This document shows, piece after piece, positions 17,318 to 29,836 of a stretch of 38,542 nt of DNA (position 1 is the first letter of the stretch; every line of letters starts with the position of its first letter). Position numbers and translations under genes: made by a program. The DNA comes from an uncultured Fodinibius sp. (GTDB lineage: Bacteria; Bacteroidota; Rhodothermia; Balneolales; Balneolaceae). The notes beneath the pieces were generated by a model. The model made no database searches. It saw nothing but the letters and a program-made list of their open reading frames with translations, and was not told the origin of the DNA. The stretch is from contig CAJXOG010000013.1 in the NCBI GenBank assembly GCA_913057775.1, positions 1 through 38,542 of the forward strand. The letters run 5' to 3'.

Positions 17318-18401
17318 ATGGCAATTAATATCTCGGACTATTTTTCCGAACAGGAGATCTCTGATCTTGCTAGAGAAGCCAACCGTTCTGATAATTTAGA
17401 AAGGCTAACATCATCTGCCTTAGATACTATCAAGGAAAAGAACCTTCTGGATCTTTTTGTCCCTAAGCAATATGGCGGATTCCAACATGATTTACCCGAA
17501 GCCCTGCCCTGGCTTGAGGCAACCTCCTGGATTGACGGTAGCCTGGGATGGACGCTCCTCAGGTGCCGGACTTTTTGGGGCGTTCATGGTACCAGAATTT
17601 GCTCGTTCTGTTTTCAACCAAAAGAATACATTTATTGCCGGCTCTGGATTTCCGGGTGGAAAAGCTAAAAAAACAAACTCTGGTTTTCTTATAGATGGAT
17701 CATGGAAATACGCTTCCGGTATAGATCATGCTACTTTGATCACCGCAACCTGCTATGTAACAAAAGATGGAAAGATACGACAAAAAGAAGATGCTCCCGT
17801 TACCAAGGCCATAGCCTGTTATCCAGATGAAATCGAAATACAAAAAAGGTGGAATAGTTATGGACTCAAAGCTACGGGAAGTCACGATTTTGAGGTGCGG
17901 GATGTACAGATTCCTGAGAAACGAACGTTTACTATTTCGCCGGATTCCGTTCATGTAGATGGACTGCTCTACCAGTATCCATTTGAAGCATTTGCGCACT
18001 GTACGCTGGCCATTTCAATGCTCGGAATAGCGAGGCGTTTTATGGATGAAGCTAAACAAATATTGCTGTCCAAAAATGATATTTCTGAAGTTACCGGACT
18101 TCCAAAATCATTGCGGACAAAAGTCAAATACTCAAATTTAAAATTTGATAATGCAAAAGAGGTCGTTTATAAAACTGTAGAACAATCATGGAAGGAACTG
18201 CAAAAATCTGGGGATCTTGACGATGACCGTGCCAATGAGGTATCTGCTCAATCTCGACGATCATGCCAAACGGCTCTCCATTGTGCACAAAGCCTCTATC
18301 CTCTTTTAGGAATGGCAGTCATCAACCCCGATTCCGCTATAAATAGATGTTGGCGTGATTTACATACCGCTAGTCAACATATGTTTCTAAGGCCTCAATA
18401 A
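17318..18401 (+). pseudogene. Acyl-CoA-dehydrogenase-family flavoprotein, frameshifted
   Basis: Two overlapping frames together give one protein of about 360 residues. The first (from the ATG at 17318) supplies the N-terminal helices, with LFVPKQYGGF and the SWIDGSLGWT segment. The match then leaves this frame near 17555-17559, where one extra base is present, and continues as SGAGLFGAFMVPEFA in the second frame to the TAA at 18399-18401. The rest includes a middle beta-domain (GSWKYASGIDHA; GLKATGSHDFEVRDV) and a C-terminal helical domain ending near RDLHTASQHMF. This architecture matches acyl-CoA dehydrogenase-like flavin monooxygenases and related oxidoreductases. No substrate can be assigned. 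Codon-by-codon quality on both sides is good, so the break is either recent or a sequencing error. Confidence 0.8.
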
Positions 18402-18473: not shown

Positions 18474-18893
18474 CTACTGGGTATTTATCCCTATGTCAAT
18501 CGATAATTTGATTCGGTTTTTGGCACGTTTAAGTGCCTTTTGTGCCCGATCTTTATCGATCGATTTATTGTCAGACTCAAGACGCTCAACGGCCCGTTCT
18601 TTTGCTTGCTTTGCTCGCTCAACATCGATTTCCTCAACCGGTTCAGCAGCTTCAGCTAATAGCGTAAGCTTATTATCGACAACTTCTACAAAACCTCCGG
18701 TTACGGAAAAAGATTGTTCCCCGCCGGCTGCTTTTCGAACCAGTATTTCCCCGATTTCAAGCGAAGAAATAATATTGGCGTGAAGCGTCTTAACTTCAAA
18801 ACTCCCCATCTCTCCGGGGACTCGAACTCCGGTTACTTCATCATCAAAGATTGAACCTTCCGGAGTTAATATTTGAGCACTAAAGGTGTTCAT
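18474..18893 (-). CDS. atpC: ATP synthase F1 epsilon subunit
   Basis: Part of the rotor stalk of F1F0 ATP synthase and a regulator of ATP hydrolysis. The 139-residue protein starts FSAQILTPEGSIFDDEV and contains the beta-sandwich core with VPGEMGSFEVKTLHANIIS and FSVTGGFVEV, then a C-terminal helical hairpin rich in Lys/Arg/Glu. It follows atpD by 17 bases. The remaining F1F0 genes are not in this window, an arrangement typical of Bacteroidota-type genomes, where atpD-atpC are separate. Confidence 0.95.
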   Translation of the reverse strand: MNTFSAQILTPEGSIFDDEVTGVRVPGEMGSFEVKTLHANIISSLEIGEILVRKAAGGEQSFSVTGGFVEVVDNKLTLLAEAAEPVEEIDVERAKQAKERAVERLESDNKSIDKDRAQKALKRAKNRIKLSIDIGINTQ

Positions 18894-18910
18894 TGGTTAC
18901 ATACCTCTTA

Positions 18911-20701
<1,791 letters not shown>

Positions 20702-23127: not shown

Positions 23128-23976
23128 ATGAACAAGCTAACACTAGGTAAATCATTATTTCATTACTTTTTTACGGTATTAATATTTTTAGGATTTACTT
23201 TTACCTCTGCATCACACATTGCAGCTCAGGATCTGGATGTCCCTTATGTACCCACCCCCGAAAACGTAGTTGAACGCATGCTCGATATTACCAATGTAAA
23301 ATCCAGCGATTATGTTATTGACTTAGGATCCGGAGACGGGCGCATCGTAATTGCGGCCGCAAAACGTGGAGCCAGTGGACACGGTATCGATCTTGATCCT
23401 GAGCGTATAGCTGAAGCCCGCGAAAATGCCAGCAGCGAAGGCGTTGACGATCAAATAATGTTCATGGAGGGAAATATTTTTGATACTGATTTTAGTGAAG
23501 CTTCTGTAATAACAATGTATCTGTTACCCTCAGTAAACAAAAAATTACGACCCGAACTAATAGAAAAACTGCAACCCGGCACTCAAGTTGTTTCGCACAG
23601 TTTTGATATGGGAAGCTGGAAAGCAGATAAGAAAGTAGTGGTGAAAAACGATGGAAGAAGCCACGACATTTATTACTGGGTAATACCCGCCCAAGCAGAA
23701 GGAGCATGGTCATGGAGTTATAATGACACCGATTTTAATATGACAGTCAACCAGCGATTTCAGGAAGTTTCTGTCAAAATCACCGATAACACCGACACCT
23801 TTTTTGATATCCATAAAGCCGAGCTAAAAGGAAAGCGGCTTACCGTACGGGCATCAAATGGAGATCAAAATTATATATTTAGCGGACGCGTTGAAGGAGA
23901 TAAGGTTTATGGGATGATGCAGCACCATAACGGCCAGGAAAAGAATTTTTCTCAATGGTCAGCAACAAAGGAATAA
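23128..23976 (+). CDS. Class I SAM-dependent methyltransferase-like protein with a signal peptide
   Basis: A 282-residue protein with an unusual build. Residues 1-33 look like a signal peptide: a basic start, a hydrophobic core (11-26) and small residues before Gln34. The next 150 residues resemble a Rossmann methyltransferase: motif I VIDLGSGDGR (63-72), acidic GIDLDPERI (86-94) and MEGNIFD (113-119). A C-terminal domain of about 90 residues (from about 190) is beta-rich with Trp and Gly (WSWSYND; VYGMMQHH). SAM is not normally available outside the cytoplasm. The signal may therefore be a membrane anchor facing the cytoplasm, or the catalytic fold may be reused for another purpose. The target is unknown. 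Confidence 0.75.
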   Translation: MNKLTLGKSLFHYFFTVLIFLGFTFTSASHIAAQDLDVPYVPTPENVVERMLDITNVKSSDYVIDLGSGDGRIVIAAAKRGASGHGIDLDPERIAEARENASSEGVDDQIMFMEGNIFDTDFSEASVITMYLLPSVNKKLRPELIEKLQPGTQVVSHSFDMGSWKADKKVVVKNDGRSHDIYYWVIPAQAEGAWSWSYNDTDFNMTVNQRFQEVSVKITDNTDTFFDIHKAELKGKRLTVRASNGDQNYIFSGRVEGDKVYGMMQHHNGQEKNFSQWSATKE

Positions 23977-25543: not shown

Positions 25544-26863
25544 TTGAATACCGAAGCAACAGCTCGTTCTATCAGCGTAGAAATACTAATAGATTTTGAA
25601 GATAACGGAGTTCTTGATTATTCCCGTGCCAACAAGCTCGAGAGCCGCGACCGTGCTGAAGTACGCGAGTATGTGCAAAATATTTTAAGACGTCGCTCTT
25701 ACCTCGATTTTCTTATCGATCAGTTTTCGAACGTGAAGATTAATGAGATGAAGTCGAGCTTAAAAAATATTCTGCGTCTCGGCGTTTATGACATGGTATT
25801 TATGGATAGCACTCCCGATTATGCAGCCATCAACGAGTCTGTCGAGATAGCTAAATACAGTCTTGGCTCGCGCACCGGTGATCTTACCAATGCAATACTG
25901 CGCAATCTGCAGCGAGATATTGATGATCTTCCCAAACCCAATTTCGAAGATCGTACGAAATTAGTTGCAACCACCTTTTCGCATCCCGAATGGCTGGTAA
26001 AGCGCTGGACTAATCGTTTTGGCGAACGCGAAGCTTTTAAGCTGATGCAAGCCAACAATAAGCGTCCAAGTTACTACATCCGCGCCAACAATCTGCGTAC
26101 TAAAACGGAGAACTTTAAATTACGAATGACCAAACACGGTATCGAATTTGAAGAAAGTGATTGGCTGCCGGGCTATTTCAAGGTGGATAGTGTTGCGCCT
26201 TTTATTTCGAAAGGCTGGCTGGACAAAGGATTTTGCCAGGTACAGGATATTGCGGCCGGTTTTGCGCCTTACCTTTTGGATCCCCAACCAGAAGAATCCA
26301 TTTATGATCTTTGTGCAGCACCCGGTACCAAAAGTATTTTAATGTCTGATCTGATGAATGGCGAAGGGGATATTTTAGCCGTTGATATTTCTTCGGAACG
26401 ACTTGATAAACTGGCCGAAAGTGCCCTCTCCTATCACGCCGAAAATATTCGTGTTCGTCGTGCAGACGTAACGGAGGTAGAACTTGATGAAACAGATGCT
26501 GTTCTATTGGATGCGCCCTGTACCGGAACAGGCGTACTTAGTAAACGAGCCGACCTACGTTGGCGTCGCGACCAAGATTCTCTTGATAATGCTGTTCAAC
26601 TGCAGTCCGAACTGCTCGATTCTGCTGCAGAAATGGTCAAAAAAGGCGGACGCTTGGTTTACAGCACCTGCTCAATCGAAGAAGAGGAAAATATGGAGCA
26701 GGTGATGAATTTTCTCGACCGACACGAAAACTTTGAGATGAAATCGGTTGAAGGATATGTGCCGGACGAAGTAATCGCTCACGGTGGATTGGCTTACCAG
26801 ACCTTTCCACACAAACACGACTGCGACGGACACTTTGGAGTATTACTAAAGCGTGCGAAATAA
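25544..26863 (+). CDS. rsmB: 16S rRNA m5C967 methyltransferase (RsmB/Sun family)
   Basis: The 439-residue product has an N-terminal NusB-like RNA-binding domain (about 1-140) and a C-terminal SAM-dependent methyltransferase domain. The catalytic pair of Cys residues is Cys326 in DAPCTGTG and Cys376 in YSTCSIEEEEN. The SAM site is near DLCAAPGTKS (about 258-267). It methylates C967 of 16S rRNA in E. coli, and a close paralogue such as a general NOL1/NOP2/Sun enzyme is the alternative. Translation appears to begin at TTG (25544). A hairpin at 26897-26911 probably ends the transcript. Confidence 0.93.
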   Translation: MNTEATARSISVEILIDFEDNGVLDYSRANKLESRDRAEVREYVQNILRRRSYLDFLIDQFSNVKINEMKSSLKNILRLGVYDMVFMDSTPDYAAINESVEIAKYSLGSRTGDLTNAILRNLQRDIDDLPKPNFEDRTKLVATTFSHPEWLVKRWTNRFGEREAFKLMQANNKRPSYYIRANNLRTKTENFKLRMTKHGIEFEESDWLPGYFKVDSVAPFISKGWLDKGFCQVQDIAAGFAPYLLDPQPEESIYDLCAAPGTKSILMSDLMNGEGDILAVDISSERLDKLAESALSYHAENIRVRRADVTEVELDETDAVLLDAPCTGTGVLSKRADLRWRRDQDSLDNAVQLQSELLDSAAEMVKKGGRLVYSTCSIEEEENMEQVMNFLDRHENFEMKSVEGYVPDEVIAHGGLAYQTFPHKHDCDGHFGVLLKRAK

Positions 26864-26896
26864 CCAGTAATTATACAGATCCTGAATCAAGCCTCT

Positions 26897-26911
26897 CCCG
26901 ACCTTTTCGGG
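26897..26911 (+). terminator. Hairpin after rsmB, probable terminator
   Basis: CCCGA (26897-26901) pairs with TCGGG (26907-26911), followed by ATTTTTGGG. It lies 34 bases past the rsmB stop codon. The stem is short and the T-run is brief, so it may be a moderate terminator. Confidence 0.45.
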
Positions 26912-26944
26912 ATTTTTGGGTTGAGATTTCTAAGTTTAATTTCT

Positions 26945-26999
26945 GCTTCCGTAGCTCGCTCACTGAAGCTTTAGCGTAGGAGAGTTCTGCTACGGAAGC
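26945..26999. repeat. Long inverted repeat in the rsmB-valS gap, possible terminator
   Basis: GCTTCCGTAGC (26945-26955) pairs with GCTACGGAAGC (26989-26999), 11 perfect base pairs. The 33-base insert holds further partly complementary pieces (CACTGAAGCTTTAGCG). TTTTTTATT follows the right arm, so on the plus strand it would work as a strong terminator. The arms recall interspersed hairpin repeats in other genomes (GAAGCTTTAGCGTAGGAG-like). Confidence 0.65.
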
Positions 27000-27077
27000 T
27001 TTTTTATTCCTATTCTATTTCAATTTATCTTTTACACCCGACCTTAATTCCCACTCTACATCTTCTTTCCTTTTTCG

Positions 27078-27085
27078 TATCTTTG
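27078..27085 (+). promoter_or_regulatory. Bacteroidota-type -7 promoter element before valS
   Basis: TATCTTTG matches the TAnnTTTG consensus of the Bacteroidota housekeeping sigma factor and is followed by CGACTAAAT. It is 48 bases before the valS start. No clear TTTG -33 element is visible upstream, although T-rich sequence precedes it. Confidence 0.6.
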
Positions 27086-27133
27086 CGACTAAATTAGCGA
27101 TAACCGGAACCTGTAAAACGAGCTTTTAGAATT

Positions 27134-29836
27134 TTGGATAAACCCACGGCTTCTCAAAACATCCCAAAACATTTTGATCCCGGCAGTATCGAAGATAAAT
27201 GGTACAGCTTCTGGGAGGATAACGGTTTTTTTCACTCCGAGCCAGACGACCGCGAATCATATACGGTCGTCATACCGCCACCTAACGTTACGGGCGTTCT
27301 GCATATGGGACACATGCTTAACAATACCATACAGGATGTACTGGTACGTCGGGCTCGCATGCAGGGCAAAAACGCCTGCTGGGTTCCGGGAACAGATCAC
27401 GCCTCCATTGCTACCGAAGCCAAAGTGGTGCAAAAACTGCGCAAAGAAGGCATCACCAAAGCAGACCTCACGCGAGAAGAATTTTTAGAACACGCCTGGG
27501 ACTGGACCGATGAGCACGGTGGTATTATCCTGCAACAGCTGCGCAAGCTTGGGGCTTCCTGCGACTGGGAACGAACACGATTTACCCTCGAAGAAGATTT
27601 ATATGAAGCGGTCGTTGATTGCTTTATCGAACTTTACGAACGCGGCTATATTTATCGCGGCAAACGGATGATCAACTGGGATCCGGAAGCCCAAACTGCC
27701 CTTTCTGATGAGGAAGTCATTCACCGTGAGGAGACGTCAAAACTCTATCACGTACGCTACAGAATTAAAGACAGCGACGAGTGGGTTACGATTGCAACCA
27801 CCCGTCCCGAGACCATTCTGGCTGATACGGCCGTTTGCGTGCATCCTGATGATGAACGTTACCAGGAGCTGATCGGTAAAACAGCTATTATCCCTGTTGT
27901 GGAGCGCGAAGTTCCTATTATTGCGGATGAGTACGTTGATATGGAGTACGGAACCGGTTGTCTGAAAATTACGCCGGCTCACGATGAAAATGATTATCAA
28001 ATCGGACAAAAGCATGAGCTGGAAATTATTGACATGCTCAATCCCGATGGTACGCTGAGTAAAGCAGCCGAGCATTACATCGGGGAAGATCGCTTTGATG
28101 CTCGTGAACTGATCATCAAAGACCTGGAAAAGAGTGATCAGCTGGTTGATATTGAAGAAATGCAAAATAAGATTGGTTATTCTGAGCGGACTGATGCGAT
28201 CATTGAACCGCGTCTTTCGCTGCAGTGGTTTTGCAAGATGGATGAGCTGGCCAAGCCTGCTCACGAAAATGTGATGAATGATAACATTGAGTTCCATCCC
28301 TCAAAGTTTAAGAATTCCTACAACCACTGGATGGAAAACATCCGCGACTGGTGTATCTCGCGTCAGCTTTGGTGGGGACAGCGCATTCCTGCTTGGTATT
28401 ACGGCGACGGAAAGAATGATTACGTCGTAGCCAAAACGGAAGAGGAAGCCATTGAAAAAGCACGCGAAAAGTCGGGTAATGATGATTTAATAGCCAACGA
28501 CATTCGTCAGGATGAGGATGTGCTTGATACTTGGTTTTCATCCTGGCTGTGGCCCATTACGGTCTTTGATCCGGACTTTATCCGCACCGGCGAACCCAAT
28601 GAAGATCTTGAATATTACTATCCTACGCAGGATTTGGTTACTGCCCCGGAGATCATGTTTTTCTGGGTCGCTCGCATGATCATGTCCGGCTATGAATTTA
28701 TGGATGAAAAACCATTTAGCAATGTCTATTACACCGGTATCGTCCGTGATAGTCAGCGGCGGAAGATGTCGAAGTCGTTGGGTAATTCTCCTGATCCCAT
28801 CAGGCTCATGGAAGAATACGGAACCGACGGCGTACGCGTTGGAATGCTGTTTTCATCACCTGCCGGCAACGATCTTCTTTTTGAAGAACAACTGTGTGAA
28901 CAGGGTCGCAATTTTGCCAATAAAATCTGGAATGCGTTCCGATTCCTGTCGATGAATCGTACCGAAGAAACACAGCTTAAAGATTCTCTTGAAATTGATG
29001 AAGATAACCTCGTTGATCGCTGGATGTTCTCTCGTCTGCACGAGACGATTGACGCCATCAACAAGGATATGGAAAACTTCCGTATCAACGAGGCACTGCA
29101 CAAAATTTATTCACTGATCTGGGATGATTTCTGTGACTGGTATATCGAACTGATTAAGGCCGACGAACAGGGCGCAAGTATTCCCGAAGATCGTCTGTCG
29201 CGCGGATTTAATTTCTTTGAACAGCTGATGAAACTGTTACATCCTTTTATGCCATTTATTACCGAGGAAATATGGCAGCTTATCCGTGATAGGGATACTG
29301 AGGAAGCTATGATTGTGGCCTCATGGCCTGAATTTGAAGAAAGTTCTGTTTCTGAATCAGATCAAGCACTTTTTGAGTCTATTCAAAAAATGATCTCCGC
29401 TATTCGAAATATCCGGGCTGAATTCAACCTTAATCCCAATGATGATATCGACTTGCTTATTAAGGCCAAGAATGAAGAAACGGCCAATGCATTAAATAAT
29501 AACGAGTGGATCTTCCGCAAGCTTCAGTCCATCGATTCGTTTGAAGTATCAGCTGACTTAGAAAAACCCGAAACATCAGCATCAGCTGTGATTGAAGGTA
29601 CCGAGCTTTTCGTACCGCTGGAAGGACTCATCGATCTGGATAAAGAACGCAAGCGCATTCAGAAAGAAATTGATCGCCTCGAAGGATTTTTAAAATCAAT
29701 CGAAGGCAAACTAAATAATGATGGCTTCGTTAATAATGCCCCCGAAGATGTGGTGCAAAAAGAGCGGGATAAAAAAGAAGACACGGAAACAAATCTCGAA
29801 AAACTGCGCGAAATTTTAGAAGAACTTGATTCCTAA
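27134..29836 (+). CDS. valS: Valyl-tRNA synthetase
   Basis: Charges tRNA-Val in the cytoplasm. The 900-residue class I synthetase has HMGH (57-60) in PPPNVTGVLHMGHML and KMSKS (544-548) in RRKMSKSLGN. An editing domain lies between them (with TTRPETILADTAVC at about 222). An anticodon-binding region and a C-terminal coiled coil (about 845-898, rich in Lys/Glu/Leu) follow, as usual for ValRS. Translation appears to start at TTG (27134), because the first ATG codons lie inside the conserved N-terminal segment. It is preceded by a TAnnTTTG promoter and followed by a hairpin-rich spacer. Confidence 0.97.
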   Translation: MDKPTASQNIPKHFDPGSIEDKWYSFWEDNGFFHSEPDDRESYTVVIPPPNVTGVLHMGHMLNNTIQDVLVRRARMQGKNACWVPGTDHASIATEAKVVQKLRKEGITKADLTREEFLEHAWDWTDEHGGIILQQLRKLGASCDWERTRFTLEEDLYEAVVDCFIELYERGYIYRGKRMINWDPEAQTALSDEEVIHREETSKLYHVRYRIKDSDEWVTIATTRPETILADTAVCVHPDDERYQELIGKTAIIPVVEREVPIIADEYVDMEYGTGCLKITPAHDENDYQIGQKHELEIIDMLNPDGTLSKAAEHYIGEDRFDARELIIKDLEKSDQLVDIEEMQNKIGYSERTDAIIEPRLSLQWFCKMDELAKPAHENVMNDNIEFHPSKFKNSYNHWMENIRDWCISRQLWWGQRIPAWYYGDGKNDYVVAKTEEEAIEKAREKSGNDDLIANDIRQDEDVLDTWFSSWLWPITVFDPDFIRTGEPNEDLEYYYPTQDLVTAPEIMFFWVARMIMSGYEFMDEKPFSNVYYTGIVRDSQRRKMSKSLGNSPDPIRLMEEYGTDGVRVGMLFSSPAGNDLLFEEQLCEQGRNFANKIWNAFRFLSMNRTEETQLKDSLEIDEDNLVDRWMFSRLHETIDAINKDMENFRINEALHKIYSLIWDDFCDWYIELIKADEQGASIPEDRLSRGFNFFEQLMKLLHPFMPFITEEIWQLIRDRDTEEAMIVASWPEFEESSVSESDQALFESIQKMISAIRNIRAEFNLNPNDDIDLLIKAKNEETANALNNNEWIFRKLQSIDSFEVSADLEKPETSASAVIEGTELFVPLEGLIDLDKERKRIQKEIDRLEGFLKSIEGKLNNDGFVNNAPEDVVQKERDKKEDTETNLEKLREILEELDS

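Follow-up and report, generated by a model that had tools for sequence, protein, structure and literature searches.

Can a methyltransferase that carries an export signal work outside the cytoplasm, and what would then supply its cofactor? The general view is that chemistry based on S-adenosylmethionine (SAM) takes place only in compartments that make or import SAM. The question is raised by a gene in a 38,542-nucleotide stretch of DNA from an uncultured Fodinibius sp. (contig CAJXOG010000013.1), here called the window. The first-pass annotation had described a signal-like N-terminus, a methyltransferase fold, and a beta-rich C-terminal part, and this observation was confirmed by the sequence and by a structural model. 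The gene was correctly placed as a single intact frame of 282 residues containing the motifs IDLGSGDGR, GIDLDPERI, and MEGNIFD (Table 1). That annotation did, however, end one gene early, as the permease gene directly downstream belongs to the feature as well. Ahead of motif I the open frame contains only two ATG, GTG, or TTG codons, Met1 and Met51. Starting at Met51 would cost the core its conserved PYVPTP segment, and the leader is therefore not an artifact; the downstream start that was foreseen as a threat to the leader does not displace it.

Table 1. Features of the locus, in window coordinates
Feature	Coordinates	Strand	Remarks
Putatively exported aKMT-type methyltransferase gene	23128..23976	+	282 aa plus stop
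N-terminal leader, signal-peptide-like	23128..23226	+	residues 1-33; likely cut between A33 and Q34
Seven-beta-strand methyltransferase domain, intact SAM motif	23239..23694	+	residues 38-189
Predicted C-terminal eight-stranded beta-barrel, avidin-like meander	23695..23973	+	residues 190-282 (about)
Partner APC permease (PF13520, LAT-type), 437 aa	24023..25336	+	46 bp downstream, same strand
atpC/atpD, rsmB-like gene, valS (names from sequence)	18474-20410, 25544-29836		flank the pair

The methyltransferase core most closely resembles aKMT. The best family match of the window protein in a profile search was NF041081 (aKMT; E 3e-39), at 134 bits against a curated cut-off of 200 bits, and four other members scored 102-163 bits. 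A PDB sequence match was obtained with 5bxy (E 4e-49), the other solved relatives being 5fa8/5fad and 5jwj. The enzyme model, built from 13 aligned sequences with a mean pLDDT of 81.9, gave Z scores of 27.5 for 5bxy, 27.3 for 5fad, 27.0 for 5fa8, and 20.6 for 5jwj, with the best structure outside this group at 19.9. The core is 41-46% identical to the aKMT chains and has the PYVPTP, DLG.GDGR, and LL..N..L.P motifs in common with them. The SAM motif residues D65, G67, G69, D70, G71, and R72 are invariant among 35 aligned members, and PYVPTP, N137, and P142, common to aKMT and outside the cofactor motif, are kept as well. In three comparisons the dN/dS of this domain was 0.027, 0.035, and 0.068, consistent with strong purifying selection, albeit with dS at 1.1-1.4 and so near saturation. 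The leader evolves loosely (0.445, 0.492, and 0.509), and the two of three comparisons that could be computed gave 0.117 and 0.126 for the C-terminal barrel and 0.041 and 0.037 for the permease. In contrast to the window protein, aKMT has nothing that matches the barrel, and in its solved chains no more than about six residues precede the core, although these constructs may be trimmed; we know of no leader on native aKMT.

The closest solved relative, 5bxy (54% identity), is titled as a Salinibacter ruber "RNA methyltransferase" in complex with S-adenosyl-L-homocysteine (SAH). Its chain is identical to residues 51-206 of the translated Salinibacter gene L097, which has a leader and has the permease alongside. 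This means that a member with both a leader and a linked permease binds the product of SAM, although the SAH may have been added for crystallization. The crystallized construct lacks the leader, and 5bxy differs from the window protein in having no C-terminal barrel. As 5bxy is the post-leader part of L097, its RNA assignment looks unsupported. Judged from the conserved residues, the cofactor site is intact in the leader-bearing enzyme. The invariant motif, the purifying selection, and the SAH complex all speak against a repurposed fold or a different cofactor, both of which had been suggested for this protein.

The leader has the sequence features expected for Sec export, by simple scores: an n-region with K3 and K8, a hydrophobic core, and a signal peptidase or lipoprotein cut site, here SHIAA followed by QDLD. 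In a first set of orthologs, all those complete at their left end carry a hydrophobic leader, mostly ending AQ.LDVPY. By inspection a leader was present in all 42 permease-linked copies, 41 of which also passed a scripted hydrophobicity threshold; the copy just below it, from Agrobacterium (L058, MFRNLALASTVFTLSLAPVQAQ), was accepted by inspection. Among the 74 unpaired copies, 63 had a leader by inspection; of the other 11, two were cut by a contig end and nine were leaderless, namely L182 and the viral-contig copies L114-L120 and L122. Leaders were assessed with simple scores in 104 copies, a set from which 12 loci were omitted (L114-L122 from viral contigs, L182, and the contig-end-cut L082 and L131). 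In 101 of these the n-region had a more positive charge than the stretch following the core, which is the N-in/C-out pattern, and an x-[AGS]-Q site was found in 89. A loose twin-arginine-like motif occurred in only 4 of the 104, and Tat export was set aside on this basis.

Leaders of the signal-peptidase-I type are found in the window's family and in the main Salinibacter-type copies, while many paralogs of the Salinibacter type, together with a small number of paired copies (L060, L150, L159, and L173), have lipoprotein-type leaders; the lipobox reads, for example, LAGC-AQD in L096 and LAGC-ARE in L150. A script divided the 116 copies into 78 SPI-like, 29 lipobox, 7 without a leader, and 2 cut off. 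These classes are rough. On inspection, three of the SPI-like copies (L118, L119, and L122) have no leader, as in their sister L117, the cysteine of two lipobox copies (L075 and L128) is misplaced, and a leader is present in L058, which the script had placed among the leaderless. The existence of leaderless members on viral contigs and in genome G391 implies that the fold does not need an N-terminal extension. On the viral-classed contigs (L114-L120 and L122), aKMT-type domains without a leader stand behind other N-terminal segments. All nine leaderless members are unpaired in the available DNA; we set this aside as a mere hint that the leader is a condition for pairing, as eight of the nine come from another collection and some of the contigs are truncated.

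Taken together, the leader sequences make it highly probable that the enzyme is exported and resides outside the cytoplasm. The idea of export put forward in the first-pass annotation is thus borne out by a leader kept across genera and phyla, by the exchange of signal-peptidase-I sites for lipoboxes, and by the charge pattern, and the phylogenetic survey it called for finds the combination of signal and methyltransferase conserved in every permease-linked copy.

The beta-rich C-terminal part was modeled as eight beta strands with a pLDDT of about 82. When this part was modeled alone from three sequences, an eight-stranded barrel was again obtained (pLDDT 82.5), in agreement with the earlier description. 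A Pfam search of the C-terminal part returned no match above cut-off. VIA-align placed avidins at the top (4jnj, Z 11.8 over 92 residues, 1.9 A, 15% identity) and also listed a quinohemoprotein amine dehydrogenase domain (1jju, Z 10.8), while the top Foldseek hits were fatty-acid-binding proteins, none with an E value below 0.001. The modeled eight-stranded meander barrel would therefore be avidin-like as a resemblance of fold only. Of the 35 aligned members, those of the window's order and the two alphaproteobacterial ones have the barrel, whereas Salinibacter-type, cyanobacterial, and other members lack it. Being missing from many members, the barrel is optional and unnecessary for the pairing of enzyme and permease.

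The permease was followed across several genome collections. Its match to PF13520 reached 146.7 bits, against a gathering cut-off of 27. In 58 relatives, the enzyme occurred in 21 (at 96 bits or more; 52 of the 58 have some match, many of them to other methyltransferases) and the permease in 16 (at 48% identity or more; 18 pass by E value), all within the 21. One genome of the same genus as the window, G007, had neither. Among 296 genomes of the phylum, 14 encoded the enzyme; 13 of the 14 also encoded the permease, which was absent from the remaining 282. The nearest named relatives of the window, L035 and L036, mark its genus as Fodinibius (Aliifodinibius), of the Balneolaceae. Balneolaceae is placed in the phylum Balneolota by NCBI; the genome sets used here count the wider phylum. 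Among 244 genomes of the class, the enzyme was found in 51 and the permease in 31, again all within the 51. These 31 orthologs, drawn from 71 genomes that pass the permease threshold, comprise 30 with at least 500 bits and the split gene of G424 (386 and 239 bits), the next score being 327. Twenty-nine of the 31 adjoin the enzyme; in G047 and G373 the two genes are on separate contigs, with the enzyme at a contig end. Another order gave 8 of 151 genomes with the enzyme, and the same 8 with an adjacent permease (60 pass the threshold, the 8 counted lie above 650 bits, and the next scores 258). Two of a further 148 genomes had the enzyme, each with the permease alongside. The first four of these sets overlap in part and the genomes are related, so that the counts are not independent events.

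Outside the window's phylum, plasmids and viral contigs were surveyed. The permease (E <=1e-40) was present in 4 of 72,556 plasmid records, from Agrobacterium, Chelatococcus, and two Leptolyngbya, with the enzyme adjoining in all four, although for AP018204.1, one of the two Leptolyngbya records, the adjacency comes from two match positions only. The enzyme was matched in six plasmid records, including a weak partial match in Natrinema and a good match in Gloeothece, where no permease is present. The Gloeothece copy (L061, 2854-3480) has a leader and no permease alongside; the upstream gene, on the opposite strand, encodes an HPP family protein. Four of the 14 loci on viral contigs (L123-L126) were too weak and were left out of later counts.

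Adjacency was observed in Bacteroidota, in alphaproteobacteria, and in one cyanobacterium, in either gene order. The enzyme came first in 19 of 41 pairs and the permease in 22, and, with start positions estimated, the intergenic distance lay between -11 and 325 bp. The distance matrices of the two proteins were correlated at 0.88, and their trees agreed in the main groups while differing in places (L060, L072, and L078). Clustering of the open reading frames from 39 neighborhoods recovered the enzyme in 39 loci and the permease in 24. No third recurring gene emerged: the next groups, in 21 and 16 loci, were frames overlapping the pair (21 of 21 and 22 of 25 ORFs), and the remaining groups were confined to the window's family or to at most 10 loci, groups of 10 or more loci having been examined individually. 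The genes that flank the pair in the window recur only in loci of its family, and the pair is kept amid other surroundings. Upstream, what looks like a single gene is spread over two overlapping frames (17318-17668 and 17457-18401, + strand), by a frameshift or an assembly error; we take the split gene at 17318-18401 to be acyl-CoA-dehydrogenase-like. As the pair persists in three phyla despite changing order and surroundings, the two proteins are very likely coupled, and we hold their pairing to be functional with high confidence.

The coupling is not obligatory for the enzyme, as 20 of the 51 enzyme-bearing genomes of the class have no permease ortholog. Some of these are fragmentary MAGs and in G391 the enzyme is leaderless, while G161, G417, G426, and G427 are near-complete. 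No substitute transporter recurred beside the permease-less copies in 16 neighborhoods read by eye, and Pfam searches of nine neighboring ORFs found no amino-acid carrier family; the matches were NTPase_1, MarC, DUF5687, FG-GAP/UnbV, DUF748, DoxX, and Peptidase_M48, with two ORFs unmatched. The MarC membrane protein, encoded directly upstream and on the same strand of two aKMT-type copies in G416 (L148, 5527-6189), is the sole membrane family of possible interest, seen once and in a genome without the permease. The 20 permease-less genomes imply either that another carrier operates there or that the task of the permease is not the supply of SAM. Fourteen class genomes encode three to seven copies of the enzyme, with one permease in eight of them and none in six, and never more than one. 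In G428 and G432 (L160-L172) there are seven aKMT-type copies each, all with leaders and several with lipoboxes, and one permease each. A permease number that never exceeds one is more in keeping with a shared supply than with separate carriers for the enzymes, an argument to which the six multi-copy genomes without any permease add nothing.

The permease matches LAT-type APC transporters of the PDB over its full length, namely BasC (E 5e-49), LAT1, xCT, and b0,+AT. At 163.4 bits it falls below the TIGR00911 (L-type amino acid transporter) cut-off of 701.8 bits, and it forms its own subfamily with seven marker residues. R99, D117, T203, E209, T293, A357, and P358, among others, are present in 41 of 41 paired permeases and in none of nine other LAT-type paralogs. 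The G047 permease (L192), which lies away from the enzyme, has the seven residues and so belongs to the same subfamily. The invariant E209 follows the YGGWN motif and aligns with LAT1 Tyr259, and the glycine that matches LAT1 Gly255 is also kept in the paired permeases. In LAT1, Tyr259 contacts the substrate side chain and the Gly255 carbonyl holds the amino group (PMC12444478), and LAT1 is described as an antiporter in a published abstract. With its acidic side chain, E209 would match a positively charged substrate group, of which the SAM sulfonium is one example, but also lysine or arginine. Because SAM, like SAH, is an alpha-amino acid, a single exchanger could bring the cofactor out and return the product. 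An amino-acid-permease-type carrier of SAM exists in yeast, Sam3. The name "S-adenosylmethionine permease" also appears in published papers. On these comparisons the chances that the permease is a SAM/SAH exchanger appear about even.

An exported member was expected by the first-pass annotation to need another cofactor source. A dedicated permease, which it did not mention, does adjoin the gene, with SAM as the putative cargo. The strongest competing explanation accepts both the pair and the export of the enzyme, and has the permease carry lysine, a methylated amino acid, or some other amine, as substrate or product, while SAM comes from lysis or through another carrier. The amino-acid transporters among the relatives of the permease, the fit of E209 to a cationic amino acid as well, and the 20 genomes that do without the permease are all consistent with this. 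The core, however, is closest to aKMT, to which a review assigns broad-specificity lysine methylation (PMC9006661), methylation of a free amino acid finds no support in this analysis, and the multi-copy genomes never have more than one permease. We regard this explanation as unlikely, though deserving of serious consideration.

The mitochondrial enzymes FAM173A and FAM173B (ANT-KMT and ATPSc-KMT) offer a different precedent, with an aKMT-like core after an N-terminal hydrophobic segment (PMC9006661). In the passages of two reviews that treat them, they and aKMT form a group of archaeal-KMT-like lysine methyltransferases, and they appear to be membrane-anchored and to act on matrix-side substrates; these passages mention alphaproteobacterial homologs and say nothing of signal peptides or a permease (PMC9006661, PMC10238732). 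By analogy, the leader could be an uncleaved anchor and the enzyme could face the cytoplasm and have membrane proteins as substrates, for example the ATP synthase c-ring, and in the window genome atpD and atpC, as named from sequence, are indeed close by. Contrary to the mitochondrial anchor, the leaders surveyed here fit N-in/C-out by charge in 101 of 104 copies, have the x-[AGS]-Q site in 89, and are replaced by lipoboxes in many members. The c-subunit loop of the window genome (L201), ARQPEASDD, has no lysine, and the atpDC neighborhood is confined to 13-14 of 39 loci, all from the window's family, for which reasons ATP synthase was also rejected as a partner. The cytoplasm-facing anchor, which the earlier annotation had offered as its alternative, is accordingly improbable.

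We consider it quite improbable that the exported domain is non-catalytic, a periplasmic SAM/SAH binding protein or sensor acting with the permease: the 5bxy crystal shows only SAH binding, but the aKMT-shared motifs beyond the cofactor motif are retained and the domain is under strong purifying selection. Slightly less probable still is that the permease is itself the substrate, as adenine nucleotide translocase is for FAM173A, for although the permease was never found without the enzyme and the enzyme is sometimes found without the permease, no lysine column is conserved in the 41 linked permeases (23 of 41 at best). With no lysine in the c-subunit loop and none conserved in the permease, neither kind of FAM173 substrate carries over.

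We favor, with modest confidence, the reading that the enzyme methylates lysine outside the cytoplasm and relies on a dedicated exchanger, most likely with SAM moving out and SAH moving in. Sequence and structure comparison establishes the leader, the intact cofactor pocket, and the conserved pairing with one permease subfamily; from these we infer the location in vivo, the SAM/SAH cargo, the lysine target, and the identity of the substrate. The aKMT-type, SAM-dependent enzyme would leave the cytoplasm by the Sec route. Sec passes proteins in an unfolded state, and the cofactor must therefore be supplied outside. The enzyme would then act in the periplasm, at the outer face of the inner membrane, while the adjacent, co-inherited LAT-type permease would exchange SAM for SAH, the two sharing the alpha-amino-acid group that this transporter fold would grip. 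Lysines of envelope proteins would be the most likely methylation targets, a proposal that we judge reasonably likely by analogy, with the lysine specificity carried over from aKMT.

More tentatively, and with slightly less than even confidence, these observations may describe a transmembrane SAM cycle in which one APC exchanger serves one to seven periplasmic or lipid-anchored aKMT-type enzymes that methylate the envelope. Among the matches listed from openly licensed papers, neither an exported aKMT-type enzyme nor bacterial periplasmic SAM exchange was described. Considered by itself, the enzyme extends the aKMT kind; were SAM exchange demonstrated, the pair would be a system of a new type. 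The structure 5bxy, filed as an RNA methyltransferase, gains a cellular context. If the proposal is correct, bacteria would supply SAM to the periplasm, the permease would be a candidate SAM/SAH exchange transporter, and a set of envelope proteins would be predicted to undergo lysine methylation after export.
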